In this document: one piece after another, positions 4,308-64,000 of the stretch
How the letters are laid out: the number at the start of each line of letters is the position of its first letter
Position numbering within the stretch: position 1 is the first letter of the stretch
Assembly (NCBI GenBank): GCA_947475545.1
Contig: CANJLL010000009.1
Coordinates: forward strand, 37,176-101,175
Direction: 5' to 3'
Source of the DNA: Chloroflexota bacterium
GTDB lineage: Bacteria > Chloroflexota > Limnocylindria > Limnocylindrales > CSP1-4
Length of the DNA: 64,000 bases
Made by a program: the position numbers and the translations under genes
Notes under the pieces: model-generated
Seen by the model: the letters and a program-made list of their open reading frames with translations, nothing else
Told to the model about the DNA's origin: nothing
The model's database searches: none

Positions 4308-4727
4308 TCAGCCGGGGTTCTTGCCGCTTGCCCGAACCGGCCGGCCGAGCGCGCGGCGGACCACGTCGATGACTTCGTCCACGTAGCGGTCCGCCTCGCC
4401 ACGCTCCGCGGCGGTCCGGATGCAGCCCTGGACGTGGTCTTCGAGGATCAGGATGGAGAGCGCATCCACGGCTGCCCTGAGAGCGGCCGTCTGCTGCAGG
4501 ATGTCGACGCAGTACTCCTCGCGCTCGATCATCCGGGCGATGCCGCGGACCTGGCCCTCGATGCGCGCCAGGCGCCGCACCAACTGGGTCCGGTCCCGCG
4601 TGTAGCTGTGGCGAAAGTGGTTGTGCGCGTCCTCGGGCGCGAGATCGGCCGGGGCATCCGCCGCGACATCGGGGACTCCGGCCGGACCGGCTGCCACCTG
4701 GTGCTTGTGGGCGCTCTCCGCATTCAT
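4308..4727 (-). CDS. Metal-sensing transcriptional repressor, CsoR/RcnR (DUF156) family
   Basis: QLVRRLARIEGQVRGIARMIEREEYCVDILQQTAALRAAVDALSILILEDHVQGCI. Confidence 0.9.
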   Translation of the reverse strand: MNAESAHKHQVAAGPAGVPDVAADAPADLAPEDAHNHFRHSYTRDRTQLVRRLARIEGQVRGIARMIEREEYCVDILQQTAALRAAVDALSILILEDHVQGCIRTAAERGEADRYVDEVIDVVRRALGRPVRASGKNPG

Positions 4728-4736
4728 GGCTCGATC

Positions 4737-4753
4737 ATACCCCCCAGGGGTAT
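4737..4753. promoter_or_regulatory. CsoR-type operator palindrome
   Basis: ATACCCCCCAGGGGTAT about 10 bp upstream of the csoR-like start codon. Confidence 0.75.
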
Positions 4754-63353: not shown

Positions 63354-63370
63354 ATACCCCCCGGGGGTAT
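63354..63370. promoter_or_regulatory. CsoR-type operator palindrome (second copy in window)
   Basis: ATACCCCCCGGGGGTAT upstream of the YHS-domain gene. Confidence 0.72.
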
Positions 63371-63451
63371 CATTCGGCCCTGGTCGGGCCGCACTGGACC
63401 CGACTGGGGCGCTCCACCCGCCCCGCCGCGCACCCGCTTGGAGGAATCATC

Positions 63452-63967
63452 GTGGTCGACATGCATCTCCAGATCGACGTCCGACCGGACAACTCGATCT
63501 TCGCCAGCTACACCTGTCCGTGCGGCTGCAATCCGGGCGTCGCGCTGACGGCGGGCACGGACGTGGCCACCGAGGGCTGCTGCTGCGGCAACGAGTTTGC
63601 CGTGGGCCATGGCGCGCGTCACGCGATCGAGTCCAAGGGGTTCGCGGCCAAGCCGGGCTTCGCGCTCCAGGTGGTGCCGGTCCAGGCGCCCTGGGGCGAG
63701 CAGATCGACGCGGTCTGGGCGGTCGGCCAGTCGGAGCATCCCGCGGAGGGTGGCCACGATCACGGGCACGAGGAGGGCGGGCTGGCGGCCGGCCGCGCCA
63801 TCGACCCGGTCTGCGGCATGACGGTGGACGTCGTGGCTGCCACGGGCAAGGGCCTGACGTTCAACCACGCCGGCTCGGACTACTACTTCTGCGGCAAGGG
63901 CTGCAAGCTCGACTTCGAGGAGGAGCCCGGCCGCTACCTCGACCCCACCTACGTCCCCTCGATGTAG
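63452..63967 (+). CDS. YHS-domain metal-binding protein with Cys- and His-rich motifs
   Basis: CPCGCNPG, CCCGNEF, HDHGHEE, IDPVCGMTVDVVAATGKGLTFNHAGSDYYFCGKGCKLDFEEEPGRYL; GGAGG RBS before GTG. Confidence 0.82.
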   Translation: MVDMHLQIDVRPDNSIFASYTCPCGCNPGVALTAGTDVATEGCCCGNEFAVGHGARHAIESKGFAAKPGFALQVVPVQAPWGEQIDAVWAVGQSEHPAEGGHDHGHEEGGLAAGRAIDPVCGMTVDVVAATGKGLTFNHAGSDYYFCGKGCKLDFEEEPGRYLDPTYVPSM

Positions 63968-63990
63968 GGTCAGGACCTGCGGTCCTGACC
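63968..63990 (+). terminator. Stem-loop terminator after YHS gene
   Basis: GGTCAGGACC-TGC-GGTCCTGACC. Confidence 0.6.
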
Positions 63991-64000
63991 TTGCGGCCCA

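Follow-up and report, generated by a model that had tools for sequence, protein, structure and literature searches.

The end of the window studied here, a 64,000-nucleotide stretch of DNA from a Chloroflexota genome of the class Limnocylindria, raises the question of what a small protein rich in cysteine and histidine does behind a copper-repressor type palindrome, and whether this palindrome places its gene under the CsoR-like regulator encoded near the other end. The earlier note had reported a near-identical 17-bp palindrome at both places, and this was borne out: a predicted CsoR type-2 operator, ATACCCCCCGGGGGTAT, lies at positions 63,354–63,370 of the forward strand and has one mismatch to ATACCCCCCAGGGGTAT at 4,737–4,753 of the reverse strand, ten bases 5' of the csoR start codon at 4,727, where it forms a putative autoregulatory operator. 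These are the only matches in the window with up to three mismatches, compared with an average of 0.13 matches in shuffled sequences. The palindrome is also infrequent in the genome as a whole, the genome-wide scan proposed in the same note having returned five sites of ATACCCCNNNGGGGTAT in 3.2 Mb, one of them at csoR, and none of the reversed control pattern. The three remaining sites are all on contig C4. One precedes the gene of a cupredoxin-like protein (PF13473/PF00127), another separates a Rieske gene from a paralogue of the cysteine-rich protein (about 75% identical, 74–76%), and the last lies where a gene for thioredoxin reductase begins (TIGR01292; locus L003, G000:C4:207310-207326). 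Besides the site at csoR itself, the operator sites of this genome are at metal or thiol genes. The first 32 kb of C4 (G000:C4:1-32000; L006, L007) constitute a metal-resistance island with four P1B-type ATPases, a CDF exporter, an ArsR-like regulator, two cupredoxin proteins, the Rieske protein, a two-component system and the CsoR-boxed paralogue.

The presumptive repressor is encoded at 4,308–4,727 on the reverse strand (139 aa) by the only PF02583 gene of the genome (93.4 bits, cut-off 22.8). Aligned to CsoR of Streptomyces lividans (E 2.5e-18), the predicted protein retains the Cys-His-Cys ligands of Cu(I) (C73, H98 and C102), the RLXR DNA-contact motif (RLAR, residues 52–55) and the equivalent of Q81 (Q79). 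The S. lividans repressor binds ATATACCCCTNAGGGGTATAT-type sites and depends on G-tracts flanked by the inverted repeat TAC-X9-GTA (PMC3902906). The window operator has exactly this form, TAC-X9-GTA with G-tracts, and sites of this kind are found both at csoR itself and at copper genes. Near the gene for the cysteine-rich protein we found neither a terminator nor a sigma-70 consensus promoter, a result that is uninformative in Chloroflexota.

That gene occupies 63,452–63,967 of the forward strand and encodes 171 aa from a GTG at 63,452, which is most likely the start codon, given the Shine-Dalgarno sequence GGAGG at 63,440–63,444, 7 nt before it, and its alignment with the ATG of the paralogue, which is preceded by the same arrangement. 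The product comprises an N-terminal Cys6 domain (residues 1–93; 63,452–63,730), a His-rich flexible linker (residues 97–112; 63,740–63,787) and a YHS domain (residues 117–164; 63,800–63,943) that scores barely above the gathering cut-off of PF04945 (30.7 versus 30.3 bits). The combination of CPCGC, CCCG, HDHGH and a YHS domain in one protein, pointed out in the earlier note, is therefore real, and the weight of its parts differs. The six cysteines of the N-terminal domain (C22, C24, C26, C43, C44 and C45) are invariant in all 20 close homologues and retained in five distant ones, and D118, C121, C147 and C151, which correspond to the Asp+3Cys ligands of the YHS/TRASH class, are likewise invariant in 20 of 20, bringing the invariant cysteines to nine overall; HDHGH, in contrast, lies in the linker, which varies in length among homologues, is usually His-rich and is modelled with low confidence (pLDDT < 50).

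The AlphaFold2 model of the N-terminal domain is confident (pLDDT 92, pTM 0.82), and sequence searches of Pfam, NCBIfam and PDB, as well as a fold search of PDB, revealed no significant relative of the domain. Fold searches with the full model and with the N-terminal domain against PDB, and with the latter against viral models, returned nothing at E ≤ 0.001. A match to DUF6527 was too weak to use (best E 0.012, 4 of 17 members) and was set aside. Rather than copper, the domain might hold Zn or an Fe-S cluster. As for the YHS domain, its Asp+3Cys ligand set is that of a YHS domain which gives a mycobacterial adenylyl cyclase a Cu2+ response in vitro, yet YHS domains are also present in proteins to which no metal-related function has been assigned, which counts against a copper function (PMC4626032).

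The contig of the window (C9) terminates 33 bp past the stop codon of the YHS-protein gene, and its last 21 bp (63,980–64,000, forward strand) reappear unchanged at the beginning of contig C5, on which copA starts at position 71. In a second genome of the same genus (G004), where the YHS protein is 98–99% identical, copA is the next gene; the copA orthologue on C5 is 97% identical to that of G004, and the distance from the YHS stop codon to copA would be 82 bp after joining C9 and C5, versus 103 bp in G004. From the overlap and the adjacency in G004 we infer that assembly has split an operon and that the YHS-protein gene directly precedes copA in the window genome. The copA product carries the CPC, YN and M-x-SS motifs and an HMA domain, and scores above the TIGR01511 threshold. 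At the assembly break, between the two genes, lies an inverted repeat with perfect 10-bp arms (GGTCAGGACC-TGC-GGTCCTGACC; 63,968–63,990, forward strand), possibly an attenuator or an RNA-stability element.

We compared the loci of 20 homologous genes from Limnocylindria, mostly from metagenome-assembled genomes. The homologue is located directly 5' of copA in 13 of them, and in two more a metal ATPase is on the 5' side. A TAC-X9-GTA palindrome is present within 400 bp upstream of 17 of the 20 genes, mostly 10–55 bp from the start, and no recognisable box precedes the other three; these and the following box counts refer to related genomes rather than to independent events. A strict search of the homologue loci for TACCC...GGGTA had suggested that the box is confined to the genus, a reading that was dropped because a scan allowing mismatches revealed boxes with both half-sites altered together. 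The paired change, ATACTCC...GGAGTAT, is common among the 17 boxed homologues and is also found at csoR and copA in the same family; across relatives, csoR itself is boxed at 26 sites. The N-terminal domain is rare, being present in 14–15 of 400 sampled Chloroflexota genomes, and its context recurs outside Limnocylindria: a gene for the N-terminal domain fused to YHS is followed by csoR and copA (L214), csoR and copA are followed by a gene that encodes the N-terminal domain with a tail rich in His (L215), and a copZ-like HMA gene is followed by an N-domain gene (L216). Clusters of csoR and copA thus include an N-domain gene in two further Chloroflexota families.

Several other features of these loci are of note. 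Boxes at the start of the thioredoxin reductase gene are conserved over several genera (L069 and others; 21 sites), a copper-thiol link of which we found no description. In many relatives of the same family, CsoR-type palindromes, ATACYCCNNNGGRGTAT, further occupy 22 sites between dnaA and rpmH and 19 sites upstream of dnaG, at loci among L072-L095, L177-L213 and L217-L246, an unusual tie of a copper-type operator to replication genes; the window genome has none there. A small membrane protein with the conserved motif AIGCPICNK and no Pfam match is frequently encoded close to the homologue or immediately ahead of it (L051:9917-10465, L054:5944-6453, L055, L058 and L063). Finally, genes for BlaI/CopY-like regulators lie near two homologues (L061:1576-1989 and L063:8119-8574), where they may provide an alternative regulator.

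The reading that best accounts for the locus, and that we consider probable, is that the YHS protein is produced when CsoR releases its operator, binds Cu(I) in the cytosol and serves CopA as a chaperone or a buffer. A copper carrier or buffer feeding the pump is the most likely role because the gene is behind a copper-repressor switch and directly before the gene of a copper-export pump. The gene would be the first of a CsoR-repressed copper-efflux operon, followed by copA. Upon a rise of cytosolic Cu(I), CsoR would load the metal at C73, H98 and C102 and leave the TAC-X9-GTA operator, allowing transcription of the operon; the soluble protein encoded there would bind Cu(I) through the invariant CxCGC/CCCG thiols of the N-terminal domain, the Asp+3Cys site within YHS or both, and the loaded protein would buffer Cu(I), pass it to CopA made from the next gene, or do both, a role similar to that of CopZ or of archaeal CopM elsewhere. 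Either role falls within this reading, and, as CopA has an HMA domain of its own, the cell might manage without a separate chaperone. The operator, the single csoR, the gene order, the conserved ligands and the matching context in relatives are observed directly; the genomic context and regulation by CsoR are strongly indicated, and repressor binding, Cu(I) binding and transfer to CopA we infer. Judged from sequence and context, two predictions of the earlier note thus gain support: that the csoR-like gene at 4,308–4,727 is the controller, as the one CsoR-family gene of the genome with its copper ligands and DNA-contact residues conserved, and that the YHS/Cys-rich protein is a member of its regulon, as suggested by the adjacency to copA and by the boxes at most of the homologues, which are located with copA, csoR or copZ.

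The main rival is a metallothionein-like cytosolic sponge, which would store or buffer Cu(I) in a thiolate cluster without docking to CopA. The nine invariant cysteines and the His-rich linker are compatible with such a function, as is the location of the gene away from copA in some genomes; the strong linkage to copA, a single pump gene, argues against it. The plasmids searched contained no N-terminal domain, the YHS part alone finding matches, in metal ATPases. Such plasmid-borne fusions of YHS to heavy-metal P-type ATPases suggest contact between this domain and the pump, which again disfavours a sponge. We regard the sponge as unlikely, and the two other explanations as less likely still. 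If the regulator were a CstR-like sensor of thiols or persulfides, the protein would handle reactive sulfur or repair thiols, and the link to copA would be secondary. CsoR-type boxes at thioredoxin reductase in many relatives point this way, and some CsoR-family proteins do answer redox or sulfur rather than copper (PMC10318464), but the Cys-His-Cys copper triad of the window protein is intact and its putative regulon includes copA, csoR and a cupredoxin, so that this explanation appears quite improbable. Least probable of all is that the palindrome is the site of another repressor, such as a BlaI/CopY-like one, as the BlaI-like genes near two homologues and the boxes before dnaA and dnaG, unusual for CsoR, might suggest, given the 26 boxes at csoR itself across relatives and the match of the palindrome to proven CsoR operators (PMC3902906).

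For a CopA-serving copper carrier there are several partial precedents. CopM, a TRASH-domain metallochaperone of archaeal cop clusters, is likewise a small cytosolic protein of the TRASH/YHS class, whose gene accompanies copA and for which a copper-carrying role has been proposed (PMC7830388). The window protein shares the association with copA but differs in that TRASH is not its sole domain, a confidently predicted Cys6 domain and a His linker being added, as well as in being bacterial and under CsoR instead of CopT/CopR. The copZA genes of S. lividans resemble the window locus in the operator class, the kind of repressor and the gene order, with copA coming after the gene of a small cytosolic protein (PMC3902906), whereas CopZ has the HMA fold with CxxC and is unrelated in sequence to the window protein. 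An identity as CopZ or another HMA protein is ruled out, with Pfam giving YHS alone, NCBIfam no match, and an HMA domain with CxxC being absent. The YHS domain of the Mycobacterium phlei adenylyl cyclase has the same Asp+3Cys ligands and is Cu2+-responsive in vitro (PMC4626032), but that domain acts as the sensor of an enzyme, whereas the YHS domain of the window protein has a Cys-rich, non-catalytic partner. A similar layout, compared here by description, is that of CopZ of Archaeoglobus, reported as a copper chaperone of two domains, a Cys-rich N-terminal Zn/[2Fe-2S] domain joined to HMA (Sazinsky 2007, cited in PMC7830388). There the C-terminal domain is HMA and here it is YHS, and the profile of the N-terminal domain of the window protein matches no PDB sequence.

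The general arrangement, a CsoR/CopA system, is known, whereas the protein family and especially its Cys6 domain appear to be undescribed in the libraries searched. We tentatively suggest, at somewhat less than even confidence, that the CxCGC...CCCG domain, alone or fused to YHS, represents a new metal-binding domain and a new class of CopA-linked copper chaperones or stores in Chloroflexota. The results add an uncharacterised family of predicted copper-binding proteins to the CsoR/CopA systems of a largely uncultured lineage and thereby give this family a testable role. The operator map, in turn, outlines a candidate CsoR regulon that would reach thioredoxin reductase and, in relatives, also dnaA and dnaG.
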